Assembly (NCBI GenBank): GCA_023250095.1
Contig: JAHFBI010000003.1
Location: 1 to 45,477, forward strand
Direction of reading: 5' to 3'
From: Candidatus Melainabacteria bacterium
GTDB taxonomy: Bacteria; Cyanobacteriota; Vampirovibrionia; Obscuribacterales; Obscuribacteraceae
DNA length: 45,477 nt
Part shown: in pieces, positions 15,768-41,642 of the stretch
How positions within the stretch are numbered: position 1 is the first letter of the stretch
Layout: every line of letters begins with the position of its first letter
Program-made: the position numbers and the translations under genes
The notes under the pieces: generated by a model
Told to the model about the DNA's origin: nothing
Database searches by the model: none
Seen by the model: the letters and a program-made list of their open reading frames with translations, nothing else

Positions 15768-18623
15768 TTGCAAACTGTCCTGAGAAAGCGCCCGATAGCC
15801 AATATGCGCGACGACAAACGTAAAGTCCCGCCGTGGTCGCAAGTCATCCCACTTGCGCTTGTATTTGCGCTTTCTCTTTGCCTTAGACTCTGGTTCAATT
15901 TTGGCGCCGAGCATATCAATAACTATTCAAGCTGCGACGCTTCCGAATATCTGCGCAATGCCGACGCCTTGATCAATTTGCGCACACTGCCGGCTAAGAC
16001 CTGGCTGGATTGCCTGAGCTCGCTTGCCGGCACCGCAACAGGGTCCACCGTGCTCGAAGTCAGACAATCTCTGTCATCGCTCAACGACTTCAAAATATCA
16101 GGGCCGGTCTTCCCCTTCTTCCTGGCAATTTGCTCTGCCATCGCCGGCGGTGCTTTCAGCGAGCGGATGTGGATTGTCGCCTTAGCCGCCCAGTCGCTCC
16201 TGTCGGCTTGCACGTGTCTTTTTATCGCCTTTATCGGCGCTTCCGCGTTTGACAAAAGGACCGGATTTATGGCCGGCATCCTGTCCGCCTTCTACCCGGC
16301 CTTTATCGTCAACAGCGGGCGTCTTTATTCAGAGACTTTCGCGGTCTTCCTGTTCAGCCTTCTTACCTGGCTCACTGTGCGTAGCCTGCGCCAGCGTGGC
16401 AACAGCCTCCCTCTGGTCGTCCTCACCGGCTTCACCATGGCTTGCCTGCAGTTGAGCAGATCGATAATGGTCGTCATCTCATTCTTGCTAGCCCCGATCC
16501 ATATATTCCAGAACAAGGGCAGGACAATACTGTCCTCAACGCTGGCGCTCGCTTTCGGTTTTGCCCTGGCGGCTGTGCCGTGGCTGGCCCTTCAGAAAGT
16601 GGTTTTCGGCTCGGGCAGCTTGATGGTCGACAGGGTCGGGCACTTCAATTTCTTCATCGGCAATAACGTCGACACGGCGGGCTTTCTTTCCTACCCCTAT
16701 CCAGACGGCACGGCCGTGGAGAGCAAAAGCATCACCACCCTGGCAAAGGAGGCTATCGAAAAAAGTCCGGAGCGCTGGGTAAAGTTGCTCCTCGATAAAC
16801 CGGCACGCTTTCTCAAATTTCCCTGGAATGATTTCAAGTGTCCAATCGGTCCGGTCACGGCATCGCAGCAAATTTTATTCCATCAGCTTATCCTCCTGCT
16901 CTTTGTTCCAGGCATCGTCCTGGGCTTTGCCTTGAAGACGAACAGCAAGGAACGCGACTATCGCAGCGACAGAGACAGAGAAAACGAACGCTTCCAGGCA
17001 AGGATGCTGCTTGCCTTAGGGATCCTCTTTCACGCGCTCTACCTGCTGTTTATCACAGTGCCGCGCTATAACCTCACAGTGATGCCTCTTTTGATTGTCT
17101 TTGCCGCAGGTTGCCTGACTTGCCTGCTGCATCTATTGCAAAATCACCGCAGTATCCCGGCAGCGATAGCGATTATCGCGTCTTCGATACTGCTTATCTT
17201 CAGCCAGCAAATCGAACTGCCTCCCTTGCTGGCGCTTTTAACTGGACCCGGGCACCCGATCCTCTGCCTTTCGCTTGCCTGCTTGCTCAAAGCACTGGTG
17301 CTGTGCCTTTTCATGGTCAGCCTCGGCAAAGCCATACCGCCTGCCGAAGGGCATCCGCGCCTGGCGCTAGGCACGACCGTGGCGCTGACGCTTGTTCTCT
17401 TGCCAGTTCTCTGCCTGCCTGTCAATGCCAACGGCCGCTGGTGGGAATGGCGGTGCCCGCTTGCTGCCCGGCAGAACATCTCACAGACAGTCACCCTCGA
17501 TAGCGCACAGGCAGACGACCTCACGGGCAGACAGGCTTTTGTTTTGCTCGACACCACCTTTGCTCCCGACATTAACAACGAGCTTGCCGTCAGAGTCAAC
17601 GGGCAACGTCTCAAAGGTCCGGTAGTGCCCGGTCTGTCGCTCGTAGGCGATTTCACGCACTTCATGCCCATCGCCGGCAACTGGTTTGCCCGCGAAGGCG
17701 AATACATCTTCGACTGCATGACGAGATCCGCCGGCATTGCCAACTGCGATCTCAGGCAGTGGTTCCTTGTGCCGCTGCCTGATTCCGCGCTATGTCACCA
17801 GCCCGGCAAGCCGCTTTCCCTGACAATAGAGATCGCCGCAACCGGCGACAACATGCATCCCAACTCCGTGTTCGGCGCCCTGGATACTGGAGGCAATCAG
17901 ATGATCATCCCTGGGCTGACGCTCGCCTCCTGGGAAAAACCTTTCTATGGTGTCGATTGTACAGACGGCTTTGGCGATACCCGCTATGAAATAAAGCTTC
18001 CGTCGGCTTGCTCCAAACTGCAGACAGGCGACCTATCTCCTCAGCCCGGCTTGCAGTCTGGAAGGTACAACATTCATGTCCTGTCCGCTGCCAGACAAAC
18101 ATCCACCACCCCGTCCAACATTTACACCGTGGAGCAAAATTCTCCAGCTCTTTCTGGCAAAAAAACCTGGAAACTGGACCTTTCTTCTCTTGACTCCAGA
18201 GTGCAAAAACAGCGCGTCATTTCGTTGAGGGATCTGCCAGCCTACAGCCCGACAGAGTTCTGGCTGGTGCGCCTTACCGGCAAGGTGCGGAGTCTTTCAG
18301 GAATGCCGGTACCAGGGCTGAGATTCAGCGCCGAGGTCCAGGGGCGCGACGGAAAGGAATCTTCGTACATCAGCCCCTGGACACCTCGACGCCTTGAAGT
18401 GACTTCTGCCTGGCGCGACTTCGACATTACCGTGCCGCTTGCGCCAGGCGCTCTTCCAGGCGCCATCAAAGGGATCGAATATTCTTTCTTCGCCAGAAGC
18501 CCATCACTGGATTCCATCAATCCGCCGCTTCAAAGAGATGGGCTTGTAGAATTTGCCGACACGAGCTTGCAAATCCTCAGCTTGCCGGCAAACCCGCTTG
18601 CCGACGGGCACAAAGTTTACTAA
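15768..18623 (+). CDS. Very large GT-C-type membrane glycosyltransferase, paralogue A
   Basis: A ~951-aa protein: about 30 soluble residues, then an ArnT/PMT-like polytopic half (to about residue 580), then about 370 residues predicted to be outside the membrane. The first extracytoplasmic loop carries CDASEYLRNAD, the acidic position typical of GT-C catalytic sites. The loop before mid-protein has KFPWNDFKCPIGPV, and the tail has DLRQWFLVPLP, MIIPGL...FYGVD and a C-terminal PLADGHKVY. These blocks recur in the genes at 30116 and 38766. GT-C enzymes use polyprenyl-phosphate sugars outside the cytoplasmic membrane. I prefer the TTG at 15768 (GGAG 6 nt upstream, 13 bp after the previous gene); a TTG at 15681 and an ATG at 15804 are alternatives. 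The acceptor is unknown. Confidence 0.75.
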   Translation: MQTVLRKRPIANMRDDKRKVPPWSQVIPLALVFALSLCLRLWFNFGAEHINNYSSCDASEYLRNADALINLRTLPAKTWLDCLSSLAGTATGSTVLEVRQSLSSLNDFKISGPVFPFFLAICSAIAGGAFSERMWIVALAAQSLLSACTCLFIAFIGASAFDKRTGFMAGILSAFYPAFIVNSGRLYSETFAVFLFSLLTWLTVRSLRQRGNSLPLVVLTGFTMACLQLSRSIMVVISFLLAPIHIFQNKGRTILSSTLALAFGFALAAVPWLALQKVVFGSGSLMVDRVGHFNFFIGNNVDTAGFLSYPYPDGTAVESKSITTLAKEAIEKSPERWVKLLLDKPARFLKFPWNDFKCPIGPVTASQQILFHQLILLLFVPGIVLGFALKTNSKERDYRSDRDRENERFQARMLLALGILFHALYLLFITVPRYNLTVMPLLIVFAAGCLTCLLHLLQNHRSIPAAIAIIASSILLIFSQQIELPPLLALLTGPGHPILCLSLACLLKALVLCLFMVSLGKAIPPAEGHPRLALGTTVALTLVLLPVLCLPVNANGRWWEWRCPLAARQNISQTVTLDSAQADDLTGRQAFVLLDTTFAPDINNELAVRVNGQRLKGPVVPGLSLVGDFTHFMPIAGNWFAREGEYIFDCMTRSAGIANCDLRQWFLVPLPDSALCHQPGKPLSLTIEIAATGDNMHPNSVFGALDTGGNQMIIPGLTLASWEKPFYGVDCTDGFGDTRYEIKLPSACSKLQTGDLSPQPGLQSGRYNIHVLSAARQTSTTPSNIYTVEQNSPALSGKKTWKLDLSSLDSRVQKQRVISLRDLPAYSPTEFWLVRLTGKVRSLSGMPVPGLRFSAEVQGRDGKESSYISPWTPRRLEVTSAWRDFDITVPLAPGALPGAIKGIEYSFFARSPSLDSINPPLQRDGLVEFADTSLQILSLPANPLADGHKVY

Positions 18624-18636
18624 CAGCCACTAAGGA

Positions 18637-19881
18637 CTAAGGACAGCTGCCCTTGCCGGCGGCAATGCCAGTTGTTTTCCCAGGTCGAAATAGAAGTGCT
18701 GCCACCTCAGCGCTTATTGCCTTATAGAGCTTGCGCCCGCCAGAGGCATTCAAGTGAGCCGAGTCCTCGAAATCAGAGGAGGCGAAGCTCTCGGACAAGG
18801 CTGGTCGAATCAGCACAGCATCGTAAGCTTTTGCCTGCATCGCCAGCTCAATTTCGTATTGCTTGAGAAAAGCCGGAGGCAGGAGCTCAGTATTTTGAGG
18901 CATCAAAGGCATATCCACAAGCAAAACAGCCACATGCTGGTCCCTGGCCAGCGCCAGCAGTTTCTTCAAATAAATGCTCTGCACTTTAAAGTGCGACATC
19001 GTAAGGGGCTGATAATCCCTCCTGTAAGCCTCGAGATCCCCTAGAGTGTTGTCCGGGGCATCAAAAATCGGCTTGTGAGATTTCTCAGGAGCCGCAGCGC
19101 CAAGAGGCTTAGGTGCGCCAACATTCTTGTCGGCAGCAGGCAGCTGAGGGTGCATGGCAAAATACAAATTGCTGGGGTGATTGCTTAGCCTGGCAACAAG
19201 CTGATTGCAGAAGTCACGATAATTGCCCCGCAATTGAAAGAAATGCCAGGCTCTGCCCAACATAAGTTGAGATATCTGCGCTGAATCAGCGTGCGTCTCC
19301 AGCAAATCGCCCAGACAAACTTGATCCTGAAGGGCAAGATAAACCGGCGTCAGCCTGGGATCGGGCAAGTTGTTGTCCAGAAAGGCGCGCGGGGATATGT
19401 CACATACCAAAACTGCAGGCTTCTTGAGCGAAGAGATACATTTTTTGAAAACAAGATATTGATCTGAGATGAGCTCGCCGAGTGTCGCCAGGTTTGCCAC
19501 AGACAGAGGCTTTCCAGCCCGCCGACAAAGCTCGCCCTCCAGATAGAGGGCCTTGCTGTAGCAAGCGACATGGTTATGCAGATATTCCTTGTCATAACGC
19601 GTACGCCGCCGGCAAAATTCGTCGTCGCAGCGCACCGCCGGAAACAGGAAGAGAGAAGACCCGGTCATGATCACCTCCGGGCTCAAGCCCGAAGCAAGAA
19701 ACTCCGGAAGCTTGTCGGTGATGAAATACTGGTTCGGTCCAGCAAGCCCCGTGCTATTCAAAAACTTCAGAGGATTGGAAACGGACAGTGCCACGTCGAG
19801 CACGATGAGCATGAACACTGTAAGCACGCTCACGCTGCCGACTACCACTCTATTCAACCCCGATAGGCGCTGGACAATCAT
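18637..19881 (-). CDS. SGNH-hydrolase-like membrane protein, paralogue 1
   Basis: A 414-aa protein with one N-terminal transmembrane span (about residues 13-33) and a large extracytoplasmic domain. It shows a GSSLFLFP nucleophile block near residue 75, ISPRAFLDN near residue 165, LLVDMPLMPQN near residue 322 and a C-terminal EDSAHLNASGG with the D-x-x-H pair of SGNH esterases. The same four blocks occur in the genes at 37031 and 43409. DltD/AlgJ/AlgX-like proteins of this design act with MBOAT acyltransferases in O-acylation of envelope polymers. The ATG at 19881 has GGGAG 9 nt upstream and lies 15 bp after the stop of the 605-aa gene. Its 3' end is 13 bp from that of GT-C paralogue A, without an obvious terminator. 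Confidence 0.7.
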   Translation of the reverse strand: MIVQRLSGLNRVVVGSVSVLTVFMLIVLDVALSVSNPLKFLNSTGLAGPNQYFITDKLPEFLASGLSPEVIMTGSSLFLFPAVRCDDEFCRRRTRYDKEYLHNHVACYSKALYLEGELCRRAGKPLSVANLATLGELISDQYLVFKKCISSLKKPAVLVCDISPRAFLDNNLPDPRLTPVYLALQDQVCLGDLLETHADSAQISQLMLGRAWHFFQLRGNYRDFCNQLVARLSNHPSNLYFAMHPQLPAADKNVGAPKPLGAAAPEKSHKPIFDAPDNTLGDLEAYRRDYQPLTMSHFKVQSIYLKKLLALARDQHVAVLLVDMPLMPQNTELLPPAFLKQYEIELAMQAKAYDAVLIRPALSESFASSDFEDSAHLNASGGRKLYKAISAEVAALLFRPGKTTGIAAGKGSCP

Positions 19882-19896
19882 GGACGGCTCTCCCGG

Positions 19897-21714
19897 CTAA
19901 TTGGCAGCTGACGCAGAAAGTTGCCTGCGCCACTTTCCGATAATTGCCGGGTCTAGCCCGAAACCCAGCCCCTTGCTCTCAATGGCATCGATAAACTGCT
20001 GTCCTGAAGCCACGGCTTCAAGACCTCCTTCTTGCGGTACAAGCAGAAACATGCCCTTGTATGGATAGACACCGCAACTGTACCCTGCCGAAATATCCTC
20101 GACCCCTTGAGCGGAGACTGTCATTCGCTCGGAGACACTGTCTGCATTGAGCCCTTGATTATTGAGTGTAAGGCGCACCATAGACTGAAAATCCCAGACC
20201 CCGTCAAAGACCGGGCTATAGGAAACATAGCGCGGGCAATTCACCAGAATCAAGCTATCGTTGTCCGAAAGAAGAGGAGCAGCTCTTTTCACCAGAGCGG
20301 CGATATTTTTTTGCGTGACCCAGGAGATTATCCAGGGCTGCGCCATAGCCCGATTGGCAAGCAAGCAAAATGCCGCAAACGGAAGCACAAGCGCAAGCAA
20401 GCACGCTGTCTGCGCGCGCATGCCGGCTTTGCCTGAAGTCAAACATTCCACAAGCTTCAAAACAAGACCAGCAAGACCGGCAAGAACCATGCCCATGCCG
20501 ACAGCGCTGCCATAATTGACGCGATTGATAATCGTGTCAAGTTTTGGATCATACTCGGGATTCAGAGCGAAAATGGTGTAAGACACAACCATGAGAACAA
20601 TGCCAAGAAAGACAAATTCCAGAGCGCCTCGGCTGCGATCGCGCACGGAAACTCCAGATACGGCGCCAACAGTGCCGGCAGCTGCTGCAACACAGCCAAG
20701 TGCAAAAAAGATCCAGTCTTTCTCAAAAAGCCCCTGTGCAAATATCTCCTGTATCTTGCTCAGGAAAAAAGGAAAGTTATAGAAAGGCGAAGAGATTCTC
20801 AGCCCTTGCCAGATTGTATGAGCCATCCATGACACGTCGAAGGAGACCGGGTGAAGCAATGCCTTCACACCCATTGAAGGCACAATTATGCGCTGCCAGC
20901 CCCAGAGTCCGCCAATACAAAGAAAGAAAGGCAGGGTCAATATAGAAGCCTTAACGATAGCCTGTCTTGAGGAAAGATGTCTTCTCAAAACCAAGAGGGC
21001 GAGCAGCCAGTTCATGGCGCAAAGCGGCAAAAACGACTCATAATTGAAAATGCTCAGGGCATAGAGCAGATAAGCCAGCCGCAGGCAGAAGCGCTCGCCT
21101 GAAGCCGCGCCTTTTACCGTCAACCACATACTGCCGAGAGAAAGCGCCAGACTGAATGTCACGGAACTAGCCAGCATCCAGTAATGCGTCACGTCATGAA
21201 TGGGATAAAGCAAGAGAGCAAAAGCTGCTAGAAACGACAGAGTCCGGTTACCTGAATAATCTTTCAACAGCCCATACAACAAGCAGGCACACGCTACCTC
21301 CAGCACCCCGTTTATCAGATGGTAGCCCAGAGGGTGAGTCGTGAACAAACTGTAAAGCACGGCAAAAAACGGCGCCTCTATAGGGCGTATCACAACACTC
21401 GCATCCTCAAAAAAATAATGAGCCAGCCGCTCGAAGAAGCCCTGCGGTCCAAAGTGAAGGAAACTTAAAGTCGCCCAGTCGTCCAGATAAAAACCAATTT
21501 GGCCAACGACCGGACAGAAACTGGCTATTTCCATCGCCACCAGGCAGACGAAAAGAAAAGCAACGACATGCCATAAGCCAGAGGCAGGCTTTGCCAGGCT
21601 CTTCCTTGCTGCTTCACTGCAGCCGGTGGAACTTGCTGTGTGCATGATGGGAGCCCGAATCGAAAACCCGTGGAGAAAGCGTGCCAGCAAGGCCGTACGA
21701 TGCACAGCTGGCAT
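19897..21714 (-). CDS. Polytopic GT-C-like membrane protein
   Basis: A 605-aa protein with about 11-12 hydrophobic spans and a ~130-residue soluble C-terminal part. The first loop reads FYLDDWATLSFL (adjacent acidic residues as in GT-C catalytic loops), followed by VIRPIEAPFF and, further on, YPIHDVTHYW and FNYESFLPL. This fits a GT-C fold glycosyltransferase, though no specific family is recognised. Two starts are possible: ATG at 21714, which lies inside a perfect inverted repeat, or ATG at 21645 (582 aa); neither has a good ribosome-binding site. The SGNH-like gene follows after 15 bp, suggesting an operon. Confidence 0.65.
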   Translation of the reverse strand: MPAVHRTALLARFLHGFSIRAPIMHTASSTGCSEAARKSLAKPASGLWHVVAFLFVCLVAMEIASFCPVVGQIGFYLDDWATLSFLHFGPQGFFERLAHYFFEDASVVIRPIEAPFFAVLYSLFTTHPLGYHLINGVLEVACACLLYGLLKDYSGNRTLSFLAAFALLLYPIHDVTHYWMLASSVTFSLALSLGSMWLTVKGAASGERFCLRLAYLLYALSIFNYESFLPLCAMNWLLALLVLRRHLSSRQAIVKASILTLPFFLCIGGLWGWQRIIVPSMGVKALLHPVSFDVSWMAHTIWQGLRISSPFYNFPFFLSKIQEIFAQGLFEKDWIFFALGCVAAAAGTVGAVSGVSVRDRSRGALEFVFLGIVLMVVSYTIFALNPEYDPKLDTIINRVNYGSAVGMGMVLAGLAGLVLKLVECLTSGKAGMRAQTACLLALVLPFAAFCLLANRAMAQPWIISWVTQKNIAALVKRAAPLLSDNDSLILVNCPRYVSYSPVFDGVWDFQSMVRLTLNNQGLNADSVSERMTVSAQGVEDISAGYSCGVYPYKGMFLLVPQEGGLEAVASGQQFIDAIESKGLGFGLDPAIIGKWRRQLSASAAN

Positions 21715-21737
21715 AGATTGTTACGACAACAATCTAT
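21713..21737. promoter_or_regulatory. Perfect inverted repeat, putative operator or leader hairpin
   Basis: Ten-base arms ATAGATTGTT (21713-21722) and AACAATCTAT (21728-21737) flank a 5-nt ACGAC centre. It lies in the divergent region before the MBOAT gene and overlaps the upstream ATG of the 605-aa gene. The 25-bp symmetry is typical of a repressor site; as RNA it would form a hairpin at the start codon. Confidence 0.55.
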
Positions 21738-21842
21738 CAGGATTTTCAAGAGCAATCTTTACGGCGCGCTAACCCTGAGCCCACCGGCGCGTCAAGCCCC
21801 GGCGGGTGAACAAAGCTAAAGGGATCAGGCAAACTTACTTGC

Positions 21843-21848
21843 TAGAAT
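21843..21848 (+). promoter_or_regulatory. Candidate extended -10 promoter of the MBOAT operon
   Basis: TTGCTAGAAT includes TGC followed by TAGAAT, an extended -10 form, 55 nt before the MBOAT start. No convincing -35 is seen, as expected for extended -10 promoters. Confidence 0.35.
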
Positions 21849-21902
21849 TGCCAAGCGTTCACCTGGACGCGCGGCTCCTGCTTATCTGCCGGCTGAATCT
21901 GA

Positions 21903-23372
21903 ATGCTTTTTAACAGCATCTCCTATCTCATATTCTTCCCGCTGGTCCTCCTCTGCTACTGGATCTCGCCGGCTCGCTTCAGGCGCCCCATCTTGCTTGC
22001 GGCAAGCTATGTCTTTTACATGAGCTGGATTCCAGCTTACGGCTTGCTCATCGGCGAGCTCACCGCCGTCAACTACCTTCTGGCATTAGCCATCGATCGC
22101 TTCGGCAGCCAGTCCAGATACTGGCTGCTGGCCGGACTCGTGGTCAATCTCGGCACGCTCTGTTATTTCAAATACACGAATTTCTTGCTTAAGTCCGTCC
22201 TTGACGGACTGACTTTCATACTGCCCTTTTTCCATTGCCCGATGCCGGCGAGCGAATCCTTCGGGCTTAACGTCATTCTTCCTCTGGGCATTTCCTTTTT
22301 CGCATTCGAGTTCATCCACTATCTTACAGATGTATATAAGGGTGATAAGCCTATCGCCAACGCCCTCGATTTCGGCTTGTTTGCTGCCTTTTTTCCCAGC
22401 CAGATAGCCGGTCCGATCAAGCGCTACCAGGACTTCATGCACCAGCTCGCCGAAGTGCCCGTATTCGACCGTGACCTGTTCCACAGAGGCTTTGTTCTTC
22501 TGTTGCAGGGACTCTTCAAAAAAGTGGCCCTCTCCGACAACCTGGCGCCTCTATCCAATGCCGGTTTTGCCGCTACCGGACAACTTGGGACATCAGATTG
22601 CTGGATAGCAGTCGCCGCATTTACTTTGCAGATCTACTTCGATTTTTCCGGCTACACCGACATGGGCCGCGGCTCGGCTATGATGCTTGGCTATACTTTG
22701 CCGGATAATTTCAATTTCCCTTACCTGGCAAGCAGCCTTTCCGATTTCTGGAAGCGCTGGCACATTTCTCTTTCCACCTGGCTGCGCGATTATCTCTATG
22801 TTCCGCTTGGCGGCGGGCGTTGCCAGAAGTCCAGAAAATACCGCAATCTGCTCATTACCATGCTGCTTGGCGGTCTCTGGCATGGAGCGGCCTGGCATTT
22901 TGTCGCCTGGGGCGGCTTTCACGGGCTGGGGTTGATCGCCAATCACCAGTGGGACGACTTTGTCGGCAGGACCCCCTTCCTGCAAAAATTTCATGCGACA
23001 CTCCCTGCCAAATGCCTTTGCATGCTTGCAACCTTGTTCCTCGTGGTCATTGGCTGGGTTCTTTTCCGCGCGGACACTCTTTCTCAGGCCCTCAGCCTTA
23101 TAGCAGGACTTTTCTGCCCTGCGCCATCGACTGTGGTGGCACCACTCCTTGCAAGCTCGCCGGTTCTCTCTGCACTCGGCGTATACTGTCTCTACGCCCT
23201 ACTCTTCAGCCTGCGGTCCTGGCGCACATTGCCCTGGCTTGAGCGCATCCACTCACAGCCCGCCTTTGCCCTCACTCTTCCCTCCCGCGCCTGCCTTTAT
23301 GCCGGCGTCGTGCTCGCCGTCATCGGATTTGCCCCGCCCCAGCCCTCTCCTTTCATTTACTTCCAGTTCTAA
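21903..23372 (+). CDS. MBOAT family O-acyltransferase (AlgI/DltB-like)
   Basis: A 489-aa polytopic membrane-bound O-acyltransferase. The family opening MLFNSISYLIFFPLVLL is present, as are FFPSQIAGPIKRY near residue 163, IYFDFSGYTDMGRGSA near residue 246, FWKRWHISLSTWLRDYLYVPLGG near residue 283, and GGLWHGAAWHFVAWGGFHG near residue 320, which contains the catalytic His. It ends in PFIYFQF. In this family the protein moves acyl groups across the membrane and attaches them to alginate, teichoic acid or other glycans, usually with an SGNH partner. An SGNH hydrolase gene follows after 13 bp. The ribosome-binding site is weak. Confidence 0.9.
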   Translation: MLFNSISYLIFFPLVLLCYWISPARFRRPILLAASYVFYMSWIPAYGLLIGELTAVNYLLALAIDRFGSQSRYWLLAGLVVNLGTLCYFKYTNFLLKSVLDGLTFILPFFHCPMPASESFGLNVILPLGISFFAFEFIHYLTDVYKGDKPIANALDFGLFAAFFPSQIAGPIKRYQDFMHQLAEVPVFDRDLFHRGFVLLLQGLFKKVALSDNLAPLSNAGFAATGQLGTSDCWIAVAAFTLQIYFDFSGYTDMGRGSAMMLGYTLPDNFNFPYLASSLSDFWKRWHISLSTWLRDYLYVPLGGGRCQKSRKYRNLLITMLLGGLWHGAAWHFVAWGGFHGLGLIANHQWDDFVGRTPFLQKFHATLPAKCLCMLATLFLVVIGWVLFRADTLSQALSLIAGLFCPAPSTVVAPLLASSPVLSALGVYCLYALLFSLRSWRTLPWLERIHSQPAFALTLPSRACLYAGVVLAVIGFAPPQPSPFIYFQF

Positions 23373-23385
23373 CTTGTCGAGATCC

Positions 23386-24795
23386 GTGTTTATTAGCCAA
23401 CCAGCCACACTAGAGAAAAAGACACAGGCAGTCACACCGCCGGCAGCGCTGCAGCGCCGCCGGTGGGTAGTGCTAGCTCAAGGACTTACCACAGCAGTCT
23501 TTGTGATCCTGTCTCTGGAGGCTTTGTTTGCCGCAGCCGGCCTTGGCGAGCAAGAGTTCTTGAAGCGTGACGGCGAGCTGGGCTTTGTGCCCATGGAAGG
23601 CAAACACGTGACCTGGCGCAAGGAAGGATTCTCCCGCACTCAATTCAACTCCTGCGGCATGAGCGACCGGGAATACAGCCTCGACAAGCCTGCTGGCACT
23701 TTCCGCATTGCCGTTATCGGCGACTCCATGGTCGAGTCCCTGCAAGTGGACCGAAGCCAGTCGTTCTGCCGGCTTGTCGAGCAAGAATTGAACAAAGGCA
23801 ATCCAGAGCGAAAGTTTCAGGTGATGAATTTTGGCGTCTCATCCTACAATCTCGGGCAGATATACTTGCGCTTGCAAAAGCTGGTCACAAAGTTCCATGT
23901 AGATCTCGTACTTTTGTGCGTCAGGCACAACAGCGTCTTCGACGTCTTCCCCAGGACCCCGGCCAGCTTCTTCTTTGCTCGCCCTTATTTCTTCCTCGGC
24001 AACAACGGCCGGCTCATTCAAGACTACACAGTACAGAGGCTCTGGGATAAATCCGGCGAGGCGCGGCGCCTGAGGGCGTGCCAATGGCTGCGCGAACACA
24101 GCCGCACCTGGGGAGTGGTGTCGTCCTTCATGGAGTCGGCAGCTGCCTGGTACCTGCAGCTTTCTTCAAATGGGCTCAAGTGGGGAGCCGATGTAACGGA
24201 CAAGCAGACAGCTTTTGCCCCAGCGTCAAAAGAAGAAGTCCGCCCGCTGTCCGGCGGGCAAGCGTCCCCTGCTTTAGCCAATCTCCCTTCGAACAGACGC
24301 ATTGCCGGCGGTGGCACCGCAGATACAGTTGCCAGCAGTTGTCACGACTGCCCGCAGCAAGACGATGGCTTGCTGGCGGGAAAGAACTCGACAGGCAATG
24401 CCGGCGCAGGTGAAGCGCGTGCTGCCGCTTATTACTGGCCAATCGCCGAAGCTCTCGTCTGCGGCATGAATGAAACTTCGCAAGCAGGCAATAGCCAACT
24501 TGCGATACTGCGCCTGCCTACCGATTACAAGCCGAACAATCCGGAGACGGAGCTCTTACGCCGGACAGCCAGTTTGCATCACATCCCTTTCATCGACGCC
24601 AGCGGCAGCTTCGAGAAAGCCAAAGCACTGGGGCTTGTGCGCTTGTTTTATATCAAGCACTTCACACCGGCCGGGCACATTCTGCTGACAAGCCAGCTTA
24701 CGCCATATCTGGCTTCACTGCCCCGTATCAAAGAATTTTGCCAGTCTTCTGCCCGGACTGAAGCACCGCCTTGGGGGACCCATCGCCATGAATGA
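23386..24795 (+). CDS. SGNH/GDSL hydrolase family membrane protein
   Basis: About 469 aa. It has one transmembrane span near residues 30-50, then an SGNH domain: IAVIGDSMVES with the nucleophile serine near residue 110, MNFGVSSYNLGQIY for block II, LLCVRHNSVFDVF for block III, and KHFTPAGHILL for the His block. At the usual catalytic Asp position (three residues before His) there is Tyr (YIKH), so the triad may be altered. A ~65-residue low-complexity Gly/Ala/Ser insert (about residues 285-345) separates blocks III and V. The frame is open upstream into the MBOAT gene; the GTG at 23386 or TTG at 23374 is the probable start. It overlaps the next gene by 8 nt. It likely partners the MBOAT protein. 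Confidence 0.72.
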   Translation: MFISQPATLEKKTQAVTPPAALQRRRWVVLAQGLTTAVFVILSLEALFAAAGLGEQEFLKRDGELGFVPMEGKHVTWRKEGFSRTQFNSCGMSDREYSLDKPAGTFRIAVIGDSMVESLQVDRSQSFCRLVEQELNKGNPERKFQVMNFGVSSYNLGQIYLRLQKLVTKFHVDLVLLCVRHNSVFDVFPRTPASFFFARPYFFLGNNGRLIQDYTVQRLWDKSGEARRLRACQWLREHSRTWGVVSSFMESAAAWYLQLSSNGLKWGADVTDKQTAFAPASKEEVRPLSGGQASPALANLPSNRRIAGGGTADTVASSCHDCPQQDDGLLAGKNSTGNAGAGEARAAAYYWPIAEALVCGMNETSQAGNSQLAILRLPTDYKPNNPETELLRRTASLHHIPFIDASGSFEKAKALGLVRLFYIKHFTPAGHILLTSQLTPYLASLPRIKEFCQSSARTEAPPWGTHRHE

Positions 24796-27355: not shown

Positions 27356-27374
27356 ACAGATAGACAGACAGGCT

Positions 27375-27386: not shown

Positions 27387-27428
27387 TAGAATGTTCCCGG
27401 ATGCGCATCATATTGGACGATAGCAGTT

Positions 27429-27860: not shown

Positions 27861-27864
27861 CACA

Positions 27865-29831: not shown

Positions 29832-29943
29832 TTTCCCGCCTTGCAATTGCCGTTTGCCAGTGTGTACGATCCCTTGGCTTCCGTTACAAAATATAAATGT
29901 GAAACTCCAACAAGGAAATACGTATTTACCGGGGGTGGTGTCC

Positions 29944-30142
29944 CTGCCAGACACACGTAGCGTCGCTGCCAGCCGACAGTGCGCCTACCCTCCTGCCAGC
30001 CGCAGGTGGGTCCCTCACAGCCAGAGGTGGCGTAGCTGCCCCTGGCGCCTCACCTGCCAGCTCACGGTGCCTGCCCGGGGGCTTCACTGGCAGAGATGCC
30101 GATTTACCACCGTTATCAATAAATCTGCCAGCCGTCTGCCAG
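29944..30142. repeat. Region with repeated CTGCCAG motifs
   Basis: CTGCCAG occurs at 29944, 29966, 29993, 30054, 30125 and 30136, with related CAGCCAG, CTGCCCC and CTGCCCG copies between and an inverted CTGGCAG at 30087. Spacing is irregular. Most of it fills the gap between two minus-strand genes, and the last two copies are inside the 3' end of GT-C paralogue B. It may be a degenerate repeat family or a structured 3' untranslated region. Confidence 0.5.
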
Positions 30143-32914
30143 AGGATGTCCGGACAGGGAAGAGATCTCAAGCTGCACATCTTTGAATTCAGCCTTGCTG
30201 CACTCCGGCAACGGGCGGGTCATCTGAGCGAGAACCGGGCTTGCCACGAAGAACTTTGCTTGCAAGGAGCTCAGCTTGCCGGGGAATTTATCCGGAGCAA
30301 ACGGGAAAGCAAGATCAAAACGCGTCCAAGAATCCGTCCTTCTCACCGCCCGCGGTGCCCAGGGACAGTCGTAAGAGTGCGCAACACCTGCCTTGTCAAC
30401 TGAATTGATTACCAGCGTAAGTCCAGGCAAACTGCTGCCTCCTTGAGACATAACCTGCCCGCGTATCCGCACCAGCCAGAGATCTCCTCGACGGTAAGAA
30501 GGGATAGTACAAACCGAGATGCAATCGCTGGGTTTCGCCGGCAGCGCAAGGCTCTCAACCTTGATGGGCACGCTCAAGATCTCAGATAGATGACTGGCAG
30601 CCCGGTCGGCTAAGCAGGTGGAAAGAAGCCTGACAAACGCCTGCCTGCCGCCGACGGAGCCGGCGGGCATAGCGCCTGGACGGGCATCAAGAGCCTGTGA
30701 GCCGGGCTCCAGTCCGCCGGCACTTACAGCCATCAGCTCATCATAGCGGCAGTCATTGAATCCTCGGTCGTTTTCGACACCATAGAAAGCCTTGTCCCAG
30801 GATGCTCTTTCAGGTCCGGGAATAATCATTCTCCCGTCTTGCCCGACAGAACTTCCGAAAACAGTGAAGGGCCTGGAATCTTCCTTGGATAGCTCCACTT
30901 TGATGAGAGGTCCGTCAACCAGTTCGCTTCGAAGCGGAATGAGAAACCACTGGCGCAGCTCAGCAGGCGTGATGCCGGCTGCGGAAGTCAGACAATTGAA
31001 AATATATTCATAGGGAAGAAAGACCTCGGCACCACCGTGATCTTCAAAACGATTTTCACGGTCCATCAAGGCAATGCCCGGGATGAGAGGTCCGCTAAGC
31101 TGTCTGCCGCCGACGCGTATGGTCAATCCGTCTGCCAGAGGCTGCCAGCCGCGGCTGTCGATCATCAAGTAATACTGCCTGCCGCCTGCCCCGCCTGGCG
31201 CCTTCTGAGGCGTCGGCAGCCACTGAGTAACCGACTCACCGGGTTTATCAAGAGAACATTGCCACTGCCCCGTGCGTCCATGAGCCTTGAGAGGAAGGCA
31301 GGCCGAGGGGAAAATTAAGATACCGCAGGCGGTGGCAACTGCCGCCAGGGCTCGCCGGCTGCCCTTGAAAGCTCTGGCAGCCCGGAAAGCGAAGATAATA
31401 AATGCAACCAGGGCAGCTCCCTTGAGGAGAACGCCGGCAATGAGGTTGAATGTACCGCCGTGACCCGTGGGAAGATCGCCCATGAAATCGAGCCGCGCTG
31501 TCAAGAAAAAGATGATGCCGCTGGCAAGCGCCAGAAGCGGCGTTCGCCTGTCCGGGCCATGGAAGAGGAGATCTAAGAGGGACACCAGTCCGGCAGCAGA
31601 AAACAAAATGACAAAGGGCATCGCCGTCACGAAATAGCGGGGCTGCCCGATGAAAGCCACATAAAGCAAGTGCAGAGCGATCACGCCCAGAATCAGAAGG
31701 CGGCATCCAATCTGCTGCCTGGAGGCAGGTATTTCCCGGCTGCCGGGAATCAAGGCAAGAATAAGTCCCCAGGCAGCCAGAAGCAAGAGTGCCTGGTGCA
31801 CAACCACTTGCAAGTGGAAATCCACAGGACCCACTGATGAGCGGAAGTCATTCCAGGGAAACTTCGCCAGCCGGGGTATTTTGGAAAAAGTAAGCTCGAC
31901 CCACCCGCAGGGATCTTGACGAAAGTTCTCCTTGAGCAATTTCGTCAGACTCTTGTCTTCGACGCAGCTGAAATCAGCGTACGGGACGCCATACCAACCT
32001 TCTCGGCCGACGTTGTTGCCTACCGAGAAATTAAGATGGCTGACTCGATCGATGACCAGGCTGGCTCTTCCGACAGCGACCTTTTGCCAGGCTAGCCACG
32101 GGAGGGCGATAAAGGCGAACCCGGCAAGCAGGACAAGCAGAGAAAGAAGAGGCTTGCGCCGCCGATTCTGAAGACAAACCAGAGGCAAGAGACAAAGAGA
32201 CAACAAACTCATTGCCGACCTCGTGAACTGCAAGAGGCAGGCCAGGATACCAACACAAAAGAGCTGCCGGAAGCTCCCCCCGTAAGGGCGAAAGCCCCGC
32301 GCAACTGCGACCAGCAGAAGAACAACCAAGAAGAGCGCCGACGTTTCGGTGATCAGCCGCCCGGAATTGATGATGAAACCCGGGTAGATTGCCGCAGCCA
32401 CCCCAGCCGCCAGAGCGACCCTTGGGCTCCAGGCAGACATACCGAGCAAACAAATAAGCGAGCAGGTCAAGGCGGACAGCACGCACTGAGCGGCAACAGG
32501 CAGCTGAAGGTCAAAGACATTGCCGGACAGAAGAAGGCAGCCAGAAAGAAACAAGGGATAAACCGGACCAGAGATGCTCAGACCTGACAATGGCTGAATG
32601 AAAGCGAGCAAATGTGCCTGGACAGAAGCTGGAGCAATACCGGTCAGGCAAGACCAGGCATCGCCCCAAAAGTTGTCCGGTAGTTTCGTCAGGGCAAGCA
32701 AGGACCTTGCATTGCTCAAATATTCCCAGGCATCGCCTGCTGCGGCACAGCTGACGTGATTGTCAACAAAATTGAACCAGAGCCTTCCACAAAGCGCCAG
32801 AACGAAGACGCCCGAAAGCACTGCCATATCGCGCCAGGGGTAAGACAGGCTCGTTGAGCCGGTGCCACCGGACAGAGCGTTTTCAGTGTTGGAAAGCAAT
32901 TGCTGATTGCTCAT
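30116..32914 (-). CDS. Very large GT-C-type membrane glycosyltransferase, paralogue B
   Basis: About 932 aa, clearly related along its whole length to the gene at 15768. Shared blocks are RLWFNF in the first span, GDAWEYLSNAR in the first outer loop (paralogue A has CDASEYLRNAD), SISGPVYPLFLSG, KFPWNDFRSSVGPV, IGQPRYFVTAMPFVI, ELRQWFLIPLR, MIIPG...WDKAFYGVE and a C-terminal PLADGWQIY. About 12 spans are followed by a ~370-residue soluble tail. I prefer the ATG at 32914, giving 31 residues before the first span as in paralogue A; the frame is open to a GTG at 32965. It is divergent from the methyltransferase gene, across a cluster of palindromes. Confidence 0.75.
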   Translation of the reverse strand: MSNQQLLSNTENALSGGTGSTSLSYPWRDMAVLSGVFVLALCGRLWFNFVDNHVSCAAAGDAWEYLSNARSLLALTKLPDNFWGDAWSCLTGIAPASVQAHLLAFIQPLSGLSISGPVYPLFLSGCLLLSGNVFDLQLPVAAQCVLSALTCSLICLLGMSAWSPRVALAAGVAAAIYPGFIINSGRLITETSALFLVVLLLVAVARGFRPYGGSFRQLFCVGILACLLQFTRSAMSLLSLCLLPLVCLQNRRRKPLLSLLVLLAGFAFIALPWLAWQKVAVGRASLVIDRVSHLNFSVGNNVGREGWYGVPYADFSCVEDKSLTKLLKENFRQDPCGWVELTFSKIPRLAKFPWNDFRSSVGPVDFHLQVVVHQALLLLAAWGLILALIPGSREIPASRQQIGCRLLILGVIALHLLYVAFIGQPRYFVTAMPFVILFSAAGLVSLLDLLFHGPDRRTPLLALASGIIFFLTARLDFMGDLPTGHGGTFNLIAGVLLKGAALVAFIIFAFRAARAFKGSRRALAAVATACGILIFPSACLPLKAHGRTGQWQCSLDKPGESVTQWLPTPQKAPGGAGGRQYYLMIDSRGWQPLADGLTIRVGGRQLSGPLIPGIALMDRENRFEDHGGAEVFLPYEYIFNCLTSAAGITPAELRQWFLIPLRSELVDGPLIKVELSKEDSRPFTVFGSSVGQDGRMIIPGPERASWDKAFYGVENDRGFNDCRYDELMAVSAGGLEPGSQALDARPGAMPAGSVGGRQAFVRLLSTCLADRAASHLSEILSVPIKVESLALPAKPSDCISVCTIPSYRRGDLWLVRIRGQVMSQGGSSLPGLTLVINSVDKAGVAHSYDCPWAPRAVRRTDSWTRFDLAFPFAPDKFPGKLSSLQAKFFVASPVLAQMTRPLPECSKAEFKDVQLEISSLSGHPLADGWQIY

Positions 32915-32984
32915 CTCATGTAAGGTCGGGACGGCAACACTCTTTGCAGCTGCCGAGCATACCACAACTGCCCGGCCACGACAC

Positions 32985-33069
32985 TTAGCTTAGGCGAGCA
33001 ATTGCCAGCCGGGCTTAACTTTGCCTAAGATGCAGAGGCAGCCGTCTGCCTGCTTAAGCTGGCTTAAGC
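32985..33069. promoter_or_regulatory. Cluster of CTTARGC-type palindromes in a divergent promoter region
   Basis: CTTAGGC (32989-32995) is mirrored by GCCTAAG (33023-33029), and GCTTAAGC, itself a perfect palindrome, occurs twice (33052-33059 and 33062-33069), centred 10 bp apart. A further GGCTTAAC copy is at 33012. Helical-turn spacing suggests cooperative binding of a regulator. Confidence 0.5.
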
Positions 33070-33089
33070 GGCATGAGTCAAGAGGACTG

Positions 33090-33095
33090 TAAAAT
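33090..33095 (+). promoter_or_regulatory. Candidate -10 element (TAAAAT) for the methyltransferase operon
   Basis: TAAAAT lies about 60 nt before the ATG at 33157 and 20 bp after the tandem GCTTAAGC palindromes, so a protein bound there would cover the -35 position. No consensus -35 is visible. Confidence 0.3.
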
Positions 33096-33156
33096 ACAGG
33101 CGAGTACGGCTTGGCACCGCACACGACGGCCCTTTCAATTTCGAGGTTAGAGCTAC

Positions 33157-34392
33157 ATGCGCCTTGGACCCATCGTTTTGATGAAGGATTCCACATTCCG
33201 CACCATCTTGCACAACAGCGACGTATTGACGGAACAGAACTCAAACCTGTCCGCGAAACTTGGAGCCGGCATTACGACGCACTCCTTCATGCATTACCCC
33301 TGGACTGCCACCACCGCTCCTGCGGTTTTTGCCGAACCTGATGAGCCCGGTCCCCGCGTTGACGAAGCTGTGGCCCGCATTATAGCCGCCTTCCAAAAAT
33401 GCATGAAAGAATACGTCAATCCGTCGCCCGGCATGTGGGACGGAATTGAGCAACGGAACAAACGCTTTCTGACAGCTCTCAGGGAAGGTAACGCCGACGA
33501 ATTGAAAGGACTCCTCGGCAGGCTTTTTCGCAACGATCTCATCTGGGGCCTGGGTAAGTTCGATGAAGCTCTGGCCAACGACATGACTCAACAAAAAGAG
33601 CACAGCCATGCCCAGTTGCGCATAACAGACGCCCTGGTCAGCCTGGCGCAAGCCGCCGGAGCGCTCACCGTCACATGTGTCGAACAGCAAGGCATAGAAA
33701 CACATTTGAATTGCCTGGCGGTGAATCTCGAACAAGTTCTCTCTTGCACAGAAAACCGGCTCGGCTTCTCGATTGCCTCTGCCCAGGTCGGGTCTATCTA
33801 TGGTTGTCGCATTGGCAGCACCTTTGTGACCATCGACAGTCTGCTTCACGCCTATACCGCGCACCGCCTGTTGCAGCTCGGCGCTGGTCCCGACAGCCAG
33901 ATAGCGGAAATCGGCGGAGGCTTTGGTTGCCTGGCCGGACTGGCTTACCGAGCAGGCTGCCGGAAATATGCCATTTACGATCTGCCCTGGGTCAACGCCA
34001 TTCAGGGCTATTACTTGCTCATGTCACAACCGGCTGAGACAGTGGCTCTGTACGGCGAAAAGGAAGCCGCCATTGCCGTCAAGCCTTTCTGGGCGTTTGA
34101 GAAGATCCCGAAGGGCAGTGTCGATTATGTAGTAAACACGGACTCGCTGCCGGAAATGGGCCATGACACGGCTAACGCTTACATCAGGGGGATAAAACAC
34201 CTTCTTTCCGACCAGGGCATTTTCCTGTCGATGAATCAGGAAGCACAGGCCAGCAACGCTGGCTTTGGTGCGCAGAACAATGTGGCGGCAATGATTGAAA
34301 GAGTTGGCGGCTTCAGAAAGCTCGGTCGCTTCCTCTACTGGATGCGCCAGGGCTACGTGGAAGAAATCTTCCAGAGAGCCCCTGGCACTTAG
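33157..34392 (+). CDS. Putative sugar O-methyltransferase (TIGR04371-like)
   Basis: A 411-aa protein. The SAM-binding block is clear in the second half: IAEIGGGFGCLAGLAYRAG near residue 250, then YAIYDLPWVNAIQGYYLL near residue 275, the wording typical of the putative sugar O-methyltransferase family TIGR04371. YVVNTDSLPEMG and FLSMNQEAQ follow. The N-terminal half is helical and probably binds the acceptor. It would methylate a hydroxyl on a sugar of the glycan or its precursor in the cytoplasm. The ATG has GAGG about 11 nt upstream. The GT-C gene starts 31 bp after its stop, so they are probably one transcript. Confidence 0.8.
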   Translation: MRLGPIVLMKDSTFRTILHNSDVLTEQNSNLSAKLGAGITTHSFMHYPWTATTAPAVFAEPDEPGPRVDEAVARIIAAFQKCMKEYVNPSPGMWDGIEQRNKRFLTALREGNADELKGLLGRLFRNDLIWGLGKFDEALANDMTQQKEHSHAQLRITDALVSLAQAAGALTVTCVEQQGIETHLNCLAVNLEQVLSCTENRLGFSIASAQVGSIYGCRIGSTFVTIDSLLHAYTAHRLLQLGAGPDSQIAEIGGGFGCLAGLAYRAGCRKYAIYDLPWVNAIQGYYLLMSQPAETVALYGEKEAAIAVKPFWAFEKIPKGSVDYVVNTDSLPEMGHDTANAYIRGIKHLLSDQGIFLSMNQEAQASNAGFGAQNNVAAMIERVGGFRKLGRFLYWMRQGYVEEIFQRAPGT

Positions 34393-34423
34393 TTGTGAAC
34401 CGGCTTTCCAGCGGAGATGGCAG

Positions 34424-36910: not shown

Positions 36911-37030
36911 CACAGCCTGTGCCGGCAGGCAAGCAAGGCCAGGCAGACAGGCGAGAGTCTGACAGAAAATGGTTAGAGCCAGGGGCAAGAGCCCACCCAG
37001 CGTCAAGCATGCGCCATAGCACCATCGAAT
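36911..37030. other. Short convergent gap with weak hairpin
   Basis: The gap holds GCCTG (36915-36919) / CAGGC (36926-36930) around a 6-nt loop. It may act as a weak terminator, and contains one TGCCGGCA copy. No T-tract is present. Confidence 0.3.
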
Positions 37031-38350: not shown

Positions 38351-38765
38351 TTGCGCCGCGTTTCCGCCTGACTCCACTTTGACCCACCGGTGCCGCGGCA
38401 CCTGACAACAGTACAACTTTGCTCGAAAAGTATCATGAACTGCCGGACATCAAAGTTGCCAGTATTCGACCCATCATAAAGCCCGGATTTCAAGACTGTC
38501 CATACAAGCTGGCGGCTCTTAATCTAAAACTTTCTATAGCCTGCCACCCTGACAAGTCTGAATAAGGGCACCGGACGTCCCATCGGACTCCTGACAAGAG
38601 CTCGTTCCCGGCTTTGCGCATGAATTCGCATCGCTAAAGCTTTTTAAAGGATGCTTCATGGCAAGCACTTGACACGGTATAAGTTACAAAGTGCTTGTAA
38701 GCCCATGGCTCCCGGCACACACAAGCCAATGAGGGACCCAGCATAAATCGGCTTGATCGAAAGTC
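38351..38765. other. Divergent intergenic region
   Basis: About 415 bp between the SGNH-like gene (-) and GT-C paralogue C (+). The only clear structure is the inverted repeat at 38662-38697, which includes TTGACA. I see no small gene that is supported by a ribosome-binding site. Confidence 0.45.
38662..38697. promoter_or_regulatory. Inverted repeat around a TTGACA element
   Basis: CAAGCACTT (38662-38670) and AAGTGCTTG (38689-38697) are perfect 9-bp arms with an 18-nt spacer. TTGACA, a consensus -35, starts at the end of the left arm (38669-38674). A -10 at 17 nt is poor (TGCTTG). The arrangement looks like an operator over a promoter, upstream of GT-C paralogue C. Confidence 0.45.
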
Positions 38766-41642
38766 ATGCAAGCACCCTTTCTTCCCTTACAAGAGCCCGG
38801 GACAAACCCTGAAATGAGCAAACCTGGCGAGCAAGTCATGCCCTGCCGGCAGTCCCCGGAGAGCGAGGCACCCTTAAGGGAGCCTCCTTCGCCCGCCAGG
38901 GGTTCACATAAGCCCGGCTCCTGGGTTGCACCTCTTATTTGCTTCATTGTCGCCTTCACACTCAGCCTGCTCCTTGATCTCTTCGGCAGCCAGTCGAAGA
39001 CGATGCTTTACTTTGACTCAGGGCACTATCTAGGTTCCGCGCGCCAGGTGCTCTTGTTTGCTCAAGGAAAAGCGCCGGCTTCCAAAGAACTTCTCGATTG
39101 TCTGATGCTGGACGGCCCGGTCCTGCCTTCAATCACCGCGGCGGTCTTTACCCTCCTGCACAAAGTACCTACAGAGTCTAACTGGAGAATATGCGCCTTT
39201 ATTCTCTCCCTGCTCCACGCCCTGAGCGCCATGCTTGTCTGCCTCCTGTCACGCCGGCTCACTGGAAGCTCTAAATGGGGTGCCATCACCGGAGTTTGCT
39301 GGGCAATTTACCCGGGAGCCCTGGCTTCCTCCGGACGCTTCCTGCTGGAGCCGCTCGGGAGTGTCCTGTTGCTTGCCTCTACCTTATCTCTTGTCAGGGC
39401 CCTTGCAGCAAGCGAAGGCGAGGAGGCAAAGATGTCCCTTCCTGGAAAAACTATCGCTGCGTCAGTGGCCGCCGGGGTATTGCAAGCTCTCCTTCTTTTG
39501 ACGCGCTCAGTTTTGCTGCCAGTCTGCCTTGTGCTCGATGTCTGGGTTCTGGCCCTCGCTCAAGGGAAGCTCCGCCGCGCAGCCATCGCCCTGTCCATGG
39601 CGGCAGGGGCGGCGGTGGCGCTCGGGCCCTGGCTCGCTTTCACCTGGCAGATCTGCGGACACGGGCAACTGCTGCCCGAGCGCGCTCCGGCAATCAATAT
39701 AGCAATCGGCTTCAACTGGGAGACAGACGGCTGGGACGGAAAGCCGGATCCGCCTTTCCAGGCACTGTACGCCGACTCCGACAGCCCGCTTTGCACGGCT
39801 TTCAGCCTGTGGAAGCAAGAGCCAGGCAAGCTTCTCAATTTATTCTGCCGCAAAGTCAGTCGCCTTTTTGCCTTGCCCTGGAACGATTTTCGCTATTCCA
39901 TATTAGGAATCCCATACGAAATCCAGCGTTACTTGCACTTCTTTCTCTGCCTGGCAGCCATGCTCGGGGCAGTTGCTTTCGCCTCCTTGCTCCCCCCCCA
40001 TCCGGGTAAAAGCAATGCCGGGCGTTTCGTCGCCATAGCCGCCATCGCCACAATCGCCTGGCACCTTATCTATGTGCTTTTCCAGGCCAATCCACGCTAT
40101 GGATTCACAGCAATGCCATTCGCCGTCATTCTTGCCACATATTTCGCCTATGCCGCTGCCAAAAGCCAGCTGAAAGGCAAACAACTGTTGTCACTGGGGA
40201 TTCCGGTATTTTTGACGATAGCTTCCTGGCAGGCAGATATCCTGCCCTCTATGGTGCAAGTTTGCGGAAGCGTCGTCACGGCAATTTGGCTTGATTGCCT
40301 GGTCAGGCTCATGCTTCTTGGCTGGACCCTGGCTGCCGCCTGGATGAGCCTGACGGCAAGACTTCCTTCCCCGTCAGGCAAGCTCGCTGCAGCCCTTGCC
40401 TCAGCCGTCCTGGCCTTTGCAGGCGGCGTCATTTTCTGCGCCGAGGCCCTCGATTCCGTTTCTCTGCGTCAGTGGAGCTGTCCTTTGAGCCCGGGGAAAA
40501 GCGCTTGCCGCCTTATCCACCTCAAAAATGTATTGCCCGAATCCGCCAGGAAATCCATCGACTGGGCGCTGGTGCTTGTCGACGGCGATGCCTCCGCCGA
40601 AAACGCCGTCCTTTCAGTCAACGGTCACAAGCTCTCCGGACGGCTCGCTTGCCTTTACCGCTATTATCCAGAGAAATATATGATAGTCGGTCTCATGCAA
40701 TTGTTCACCCCGATTCTGGGCAATTCGCTTGCCGATATGCGGCAATGGCGAGCTGTGCCTGTGCCACTTTCATGGATAAACCCCGACGGCGATAACTTAT
40801 TGTCTATCGGCACCGGGACCTCCGGCTCAGCCACTATATATGGTGATTACTTGCCATCGCGCGGACTCCGGCGCCGGCTGCCGGCGCTTGGCACATACAG
40901 CCTTACGCGTTCGTTCAACTGCCCGGACAACGAAGGCGGCTTCGACGGGCGCCCTATCGACCCCTCAGGATTGACTCCGACTGGCTCCACGTCCTATCTC
41001 ACAGATGGAGCGACACAAAGATGCGATGACTTATCTGAGCATTTCGGCAGACAGACTGGCGAGTACCGGCTGCATCTCATACTGGGGATCAAAACGAAAG
41101 CCACTACTTCTGGCAACATCAGCACGACTTGCGATCCACAAAGCAAGCCAGCCTCTGGACAATGCCTCTTCACAAAACAATTTCAGTCAGGAGATTTCGG
41201 GCCGCCTCTGCATCAGATAAGCAAAGGGCAATTGCACATAAGCAAGGCAATAACGCGCCCGGCGCCGTTGACGGTAGCCATTGTGGATGTGCCGGGCTCA
41301 GTCACGGCAGGCAGCCACCTGTCCATCAAACTGAGCGGGCAGGCAACCAGCCTGGGCCGCAGTGCCGCGGAAGTGGGAATCGTGATCATGGCCGAAGATC
41401 GCTCTGTCAGCGAGCGCTTGCAGCTGGCAGCCACGCCGGTCAGCCTCACCGCCTCAGACAGCAAGTGGAAATCATTTGCCATCTCAGACTGCCTGCCCTG
41501 CAATTCGATCAAAGCCGGACCCCAGCGCCTGCGCATCGAGATCTACACTCTCAAAGGCGATACGGTGTTTAAAGACCTCAGCCTGGAGCTTTCGCCCGCG
41601 AACCTGCCGACATTCACCTTGCACAGGGCAGCTATCTATTAG
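38766..41642 (+). CDS. Very large GT-C-type membrane glycosyltransferase, paralogue C
   Basis: 958 aa from the ATG at 38766. It is more diverged than A and B but keeps the same plan: a first outer loop with YFDSGHYLGSAR, ALPWNDFRYSILGIP before the middle spans, ANPRYGFTAMPFAVI, a soluble tail with RQWSCPLSP, LSVNGHKLSGRL and DMRQWRAVPVP, and a C-terminus ending AAIY. The tail holds long Ser/Thr/Gly-rich stretches. In the first loop His replaces the Glu found in A and B (DSGHYL against DASEYL). In-frame ATGs at 38814 and 38838 are possible later starts; no ribosome-binding site is decisive. It is convergent with the carboxylesterase 37 bp away. Confidence 0.72.
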   Translation: MQAPFLPLQEPGTNPEMSKPGEQVMPCRQSPESEAPLREPPSPARGSHKPGSWVAPLICFIVAFTLSLLLDLFGSQSKTMLYFDSGHYLGSARQVLLFAQGKAPASKELLDCLMLDGPVLPSITAAVFTLLHKVPTESNWRICAFILSLLHALSAMLVCLLSRRLTGSSKWGAITGVCWAIYPGALASSGRFLLEPLGSVLLLASTLSLVRALAASEGEEAKMSLPGKTIAASVAAGVLQALLLLTRSVLLPVCLVLDVWVLALAQGKLRRAAIALSMAAGAAVALGPWLAFTWQICGHGQLLPERAPAINIAIGFNWETDGWDGKPDPPFQALYADSDSPLCTAFSLWKQEPGKLLNLFCRKVSRLFALPWNDFRYSILGIPYEIQRYLHFFLCLAAMLGAVAFASLLPPHPGKSNAGRFVAIAAIATIAWHLIYVLFQANPRYGFTAMPFAVILATYFAYAAAKSQLKGKQLLSLGIPVFLTIASWQADILPSMVQVCGSVVTAIWLDCLVRLMLLGWTLAAAWMSLTARLPSPSGKLAAALASAVLAFAGGVIFCAEALDSVSLRQWSCPLSPGKSACRLIHLKNVLPESARKSIDWALVLVDGDASAENAVLSVNGHKLSGRLACLYRYYPEKYMIVGLMQLFTPILGNSLADMRQWRAVPVPLSWINPDGDNLLSIGTGTSGSATIYGDYLPSRGLRRRLPALGTYSLTRSFNCPDNEGGFDGRPIDPSGLTPTGSTSYLTDGATQRCDDLSEHFGRQTGEYRLHLILGIKTKATTSGNISTTCDPQSKPASGQCLFTKQFQSGDFGPPLHQISKGQLHISKAITRPAPLTVAIVDVPGSVTAGSHLSIKLSGQATSLGRSAAEVGIVIMAEDRSVSERLQLAATPVSLTASDSKWKSFAISDCLPCNSIKAGPQRLRIEIYTLKGDTVFKDLSLELSPANLPTFTLHRAAIY

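Follow-up and report, generated by a model that had tools for sequence, protein, structure and literature searches.

Three large genes that resemble one another lie within a single 45,477-nucleotide stretch of DNA (hereafter the window) from an Obscuribacteraceae genome, and they raise the question of whether they make up an enzyme family of their own and what their long C-terminal tails might do. The first-pass annotation of the window, made from the letters alone, had described three open reading frames whose motif blocks agree in order and wording through a GT-C membrane half and a shared extracytoplasmic tail. All three were found, with the second on the minus strand:

15768-18623, + strand: paralogue A, the core orthologue, 951 aa, with a GT-C membrane half and a two-domain beta tail
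30116-32965, - strand: paralogue B, 949 aa, of group I (later lineage)
38766-41642, + strand: paralogue C, 958 aa, of group II

The start of A is uncertain: a TTG at 15681 opens the frame, and the earliest in-frame ATG lies at about 15804.

Pairwise alignment bears out the global similarity, with 35% identity between A and B (942 aa aligned, E 1e-161), 24% between A and C (854 aa, E 1e-28) and 25% between B and C (E 8e-26). The membrane halves of groups I and II match each other as profiles at E 2.5e-55. Likewise, their tails match in hhalign with a probability of 99.8% (E 3.8e-29, 343 columns), and an HMM of group I tails, from which group II had been left out, recovers the tail of C at 9.6e-11. 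Taken together, these alignments and profile matches place the relatedness well above chance. The motifs listed in the first-pass annotation are also all present. The loop motif is D57-A-S-E-YL in A, D-A-W-E-YL in B and D-S-G-H-YL in C; PWNDF and PRY occur in all three (PRYG in C only); the tails carry DLRQW, ELRQW and DMRQW, as well as VPLP, IPLR and VPVP, in A, B and C respectively, and those of A and B also have MIIPG and PLADG. A fourth copy lies on another contig of the same genome (G000:C440).

We regard it as probable that A, B and C belong to one new, lineage-specific GT-CA family, whose members would act as extracytoplasmic glycosyltransferases that depend on a polyprenyl-phosphate sugar and bind the acceptor through the tail.

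The membrane half and its putative active site

The AlphaFold models of A were built on an 8-sequence alignment. In the full-length model (pLDDT 72, pTM 0.73), a helical half of several membrane spans, which includes juxtamembrane helices, precedes two beta domains. Three helices (59-73, 76-87 and 92-101) sit between the helices at 22-46 and 114-125, and the membrane half is therefore predicted to be of the GT-CA fold class, with its juxtamembrane helices between TM1 and TM2. Foldseek searches with A returned, with E-values from 4e-5 to 4e-3, AglB, STT3, PglB, EmbA (904 columns) and ArnT; with a low TM-score of 0.22-0.26 of the query and 11-14% identity, these full-length matches do not go beyond the fold class. 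Furthermore, the membrane half of A, and no other part, matches Pfam PMT_2 (PF13231; E 3e-6) with 27.9 bits, above the gathering score of 26.1. B and C match no Pfam model at all, NCBIfam gives no match for any of the three, and the family profile finds no sequence link to solved GT-C proteins in the PDB. The GT-C assignment of the first-pass annotation is thus supported by the model, by Foldseek and, in A, by PMT_2.

Counted over 77 full-length family members in A numbering, six residues are invariant in 77/77, namely D57, E189, R289, N294, R347 and R433. The first is the candidate of most interest:

15936-15938, + strand: D57 of A, putative catalytic Asp, unchanged in 77/77 members and directly preceding the first juxtamembrane helix

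GT-CA enzymes have in common an Asp that is essential and sits at the tip of juxtamembrane helix 1 (PMC12041299). In our model D57 falls between TM1 (22-46) and helix 59-73, where it appears to take the position of this essential Asp, and we consider it the putative catalytic residue. Model confidence drops below a pLDDT of 50 in the active-site loops 290-317 and 354-356, and in the tail loop 721-739.

The N terminus of A and the loop at about 388-409 are rich in Lys and Arg, which by the positive-inside rule would place them on the cytoplasmic side. Counting spans from either end, we infer that the tail would be extracytoplasmic, as would D57 and the PRY motif, in line with the location first proposed for the shared tail.

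A conserved tail outside recognised families

The tails and their most conserved segments are as follows:

17433-18620, + strand: A tail, residues 556-951, with beta domain 1 (~560-720), a conserved loop and beta domain 2 (~800-940)
30119-31279, - strand: B tail
40458-41639, + strand: C tail
17754-17762, + strand: RQW motif in the A tail (R663 in 74/77 members, Q664 in 69/77, W665 in 76/77)
17928-17984, + strand: A tail loop, residues 721-739, SWEKPFYGVDCTDGFGDTR, conserved and modelled with low confidence (S721 in 73/77, K724 in 69/77, D737 in 70/77, R739 in 73/77)

The shared tail had been put at about 370 residues; its homology holds in all three proteins, and its length is slightly greater (A 396, B 387 and C 394 residues, counted from our chosen membrane/tail junction). 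Two further residues, E560 and D595, are each kept in 73/77 members. No transmembrane segment is predicted in the tail. When the A tail was modelled alone (pLDDT 76, pTM 0.82), AlphaFold returned two beta-sandwich domains, apparently in tandem, which agrees with the beta-sandwich fold that had been foreseen. Foldseek matched this model to nothing more specific than generic double jelly rolls (viral VP2, BcsB and CBM22), with a TM-score of 0.40 or less. The top match, VP2 of IBDV, was rejected as a relative, given a TM-score of 0.26 or less, an rmsd above 20 A and its generic double jelly-roll nature.

The tail is likewise unrecognised by Pfam, NCBIfam and PDB sequences, as the claim that it has no named family would have it. 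Thirty tails scanned singly against Pfam gave no consistent family, and PDB sequence searches with A, the family profile and the tail profile gave no real match and nothing better than a viral capsid at E 0.22. We also rejected homology of the A tail to the tail of P4, a neighbouring membrane protein described below, or to YfhO (hhalign probability under 1%). No stand-alone tails were found; the short tail ORFs that we checked end at contig ends. With jelly rolls alone among the Foldseek matches and no family in Pfam or the PDB, the tail is, as modelled, a beta-sandwich outside recognised families by all tests run here, and it is plausibly carbohydrate-binding.

A known-domain match would have spoken against the novelty of the tail, and MIR was one candidate: Pfam finds it neither in the full proteins A, B and C nor in the 30 tails, and finds no STT3 C-domain in the tail. 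These results bear on the hypothesis that the three proteins are PMT- or oligosaccharyltransferase-like enzymes that attach a sugar or oligosaccharide to secreted proteins, with the tail docking the protein acceptor. AglB, STT3 and PglB do head the Foldseek matches, and PMT_2 is the sole Pfam match of A. However, these likenesses remain at fold-class level, the tail lacks the domains just named, and the glycan-building character of the locus (two GT4 genes, epimerases, a sugar O-methyltransferase, MBOAT/SGNH genes) suits a polysaccharide at least equally well. We therefore consider protein glycosylation unlikely. Regarding ArnT and PMT themselves (GT83/GT39), the likeness is confined to the membrane half; B and C lack a PMT_2 match, and the tail of about 390 residues has no Pfam match.

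The architecture of a GT-C half with a C-terminal beta-sandwich region has precedents in EmbA/B/C and GT136. In EmbC, the C-terminal region comprises two subdomains, one of them a CBM-like jelly roll with an acceptor-binding Trp (PMC3044687). By prediction, A, B and C share with EmbA, EmbB and EmbC (GT53) a GT-C half followed by a large extracytoplasmic beta-sandwich region; their tail has a conserved Trp, and the Foldseek alignment to EmbA (E 6e-4) spans most of A. One might see our proteins as mycobacterial-type Emb/AftD arabinosyltransferases that have diverged beyond detection, with a tail that is not novel, and one of the 30 tails does match Arabino_trans_N at E 0.07. Nevertheless, a single such hit among 30 is at chance level, no Pfam arabinosyltransferase model (Arabinose_trans, Arabino_trans_C, Arabino_trans_N) matches A, B or C at E 0.1, and neither the family profile nor the tail profile finds a PDB sequence. 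Moreover, the two beta domains are in tandem in our model, whereas subdomain II of EmbC is nested in subdomain I (PMC3044687). The proteins also come from a Cyanobacteriota lineage, with no evidence for arabinose. Membership in the Emb/AftD family hence seems to us highly improbable.

The GT136 pentofuranosyltransferases of three-component systems resemble A in being GT-C enzymes with a beta-rich domain after the last helices and a polyprenyl-phosphate-sugar synthase as a partner (PMC11127046). By their description they are set apart from A, B and C: the partner of A is a GtrB/ArnC-like GT2 and not a phosphoribosyl-type synthase, and the A tail has two domains over about 390 residues.

A conserved glycan locus around A

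A belongs to a gene set that recurs in relatives:

10291-11319, - strand: GtrB/ArnC-type polyprenyl-phosphate glycosyltransferase (GT2), likely donor synthase, core gene
11454-12413, - strand: NAD-dependent sugar epimerase/dehydratase, core gene
12437-13864, - strand: GT4b, a GT4 glycosyltransferase, core gene
14186-15754, + strand: GT4a, a GT4 glycosyltransferase, core gene directly upstream of A
24788-27355, + strand: P4, a second GT-C-like protein of 855 aa with its own tail, unrelated to A, conserved partner of A

The recurring order is GtrB-like GT2, epimerase and GT4b, then GT4a (which GT4b faces), A and P4. Counting loci in which an A-type gene lies near a GT2 homologue of at least 54% identity, we found this association in 15 genera, including the present one. 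The core GT2 matches Synechocystis GtrB sll0501 (5ekp) at E 5e-76 and ArnC at about 1e-44. GtrB is a polyisoprenyl-phosphate glycosyltransferase that loads a polyisoprenyl carrier with a sugar (PMC4728340).

We propose that, on the cytoplasmic side, the GtrB-like neighbour would attach a sugar to polyprenyl phosphate, and that the lipid-linked sugar would then be flipped across the membrane. Outside the membrane, the membrane half of A would transfer the sugar, with D57 as the catalytic residue; B and C may perform a like transfer with other donors or acceptors. By analogy with EmbC and from their conservation, the two tail domains, exposed at the outer face of the cytoplasmic membrane, would most likely keep the acceptor glycan close to the active site as it grows, with the near-invariant RQW and the conserved SWEK...D-R loop as likely contacts. 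Since loop 721-739, despite its conservation, shares low model confidence with the active-site loops, we suggest that it may meet the active site. This scheme recalls O-antigen glucosylation by GtrA/GtrB/Gtr, which likewise pairs a GtrB-type donor synthase with a GT-C enzyme. It differs in that the GT-C enzymes here are long-tailed and of another family, and in that no flippase gene, GtrA included, was identified in the window.

Might the three proteins instead be GT-C-like membrane proteins with another task, such as a YfhO-like function, polymerization or ligation, or transport of a lipid-linked glycan, with the tail as a scaffold? YfhO genes, which encode large polytopic proteins, do adjoin the same locus in relatives. 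On the other hand, the family keeps an invariant Asp at the GT-CA position together with a set of fully conserved residues, and a GtrB-type donor synthase is conserved alongside A. The profile similarity to YfhO is unconvincing, with a probability of 34% over 68 columns in the membrane half and 0.2% in the tail; the YfhO Pfam model (PF09586) matches none of A, B and C, and their tail, having no predicted transmembrane segment, lacks the C-terminal membrane anchor of YfhO. We thus judge such a task very unlikely and retain the glycosyltransferase reading. As regards the YfhO genes themselves, they adjoin or lie inside the core locus of relatives at L043:506-19019 (G020:C56), L035, L037, L048 and L052; L043 has five YfhO-family proteins of about 1000 aa, and Pfam confirms several of these YfhO genes.

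A diderm envelope has been inferred for Obscuribacter, which has genes for lipid A (PMC4040986); the product may thus be a glycan of the envelope, linked to LPS or of another kind. MBOAT and SGNH/GDSL genes of O-acylation type lie between A and P4 both here and in another genome, G008. The window holds two MBOAT genes with DUF1574/SGNH-like partners (18637-24795 and 43409-45477), which suggest O-acylation of an envelope glycan.

Further genes were noted in the window. Positions 4502-10148 carry a split transketolase pair and GT2-like, DUF4915, sulfotransferase and epimerase genes, and this entire set also adjoins the core in G020 (L044). An Exo_endo_phos protein, whose N-terminal region of about 430 residues has no Pfam family, and a NanM-type sugar O-methyltransferase are encoded at 27915-29954 and 33157-34392. 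P5 (34295-36910), a polytopic protein of 871 aa, ends in a long C-terminal tail and has neither a Pfam family nor a paralogue in its own genome.

P4 carries a conserved DD-x-x-E motif after TM1, and profile comparison reveals no relation between the P4 and A families. Within the order, the P4 family occurs in 50/50 Obscuribacteraceae genomes and in 0/3 genomes of the sister family. Each Obscuribacteraceae genome has 3-14 matches, the present one 11, and several of the genes stand in a row at G020:C120:30622-43004. We also put forward, tentatively and with more doubt than confidence, a bolder version of the glycosyltransferase reading, in which the tail would belong to the working enzyme, RQW and SWEK...D-R would close over the active site of this new GT-C family and set acceptor specificity, and the family would build together with the likewise lineage-specific P4 family a polymer unique to Obscuribacteraceae. 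If true, this polymer would take a place comparable to that of arabinan in mycobacteria.

History of the copies and taxonomic range

In the tree, A and B fall into group I (support 100), and C falls with the fourth copy into group II (support 99); some further divergent members fit neither clearly. Within group I, A joins the core-linked genes (98) and B a second-copy lineage (91). In G008, G012, G020, G021 and here, no more than about 50 kb separate a group II gene from the core; in G006 the distance is 77 kb. From the tree and these positions, we conclude that the window holds one core orthologue (A), one later duplicate (B) and one old paralogue (C). The idea that the three copies stand for three sugar additions to one glycan is not borne out by this history, in which C has a relative on C440; three sugars on one glycan would be a possible outcome.

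The tail HMM detects the family in 48/50 Obscuribacteraceae genomes, with 1-9 copies each, and the two negative genomes are both 65% complete. It finds nothing in the sister family (0/3 genomes) or in the sampled rest of the phylum (0/385), and a plasmid collection holds no family member. A pattern scan of the contigs of about 85,000 species, which can detect no more than close relatives, picked up four Obscuribacterales records plus one further MAG. The latter, L036 (JAJPJO010000554.1, 'Proteobacteria bacterium'), bears part of the core locus. We rejected it as a proteobacterial member: it matches G007:C243 of Obscuribacteraceae in protein and size (8,911 bases) and is hence a mislabelled MAG of that family. 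As judged from these searches, the A/B/C family is lineage-restricted within the phylum, and it is new both as a family and in its taxonomic signature.

Altogether, an unnamed enzyme family marks nearly all Obscuribacteraceae, here known from metagenome-assembled genomes, and one of its copies is tied to a conserved cell-envelope glycan locus, in which D57, W665, the SWEK...D-R loop and the donor synthase offer testable points. With 1-9 copies of the A family and 3-14 matches for the P4 family per genome, these non-photosynthetic cyanobacterial relatives hold unusually many extracytoplasmic glycosyltransferase-like proteins. Some family copies contain in-frame stops, three at G421:C24:17649-18470 and one at G018:C22:240822-243029, and are possibly decayed paralogues or assembly errors.
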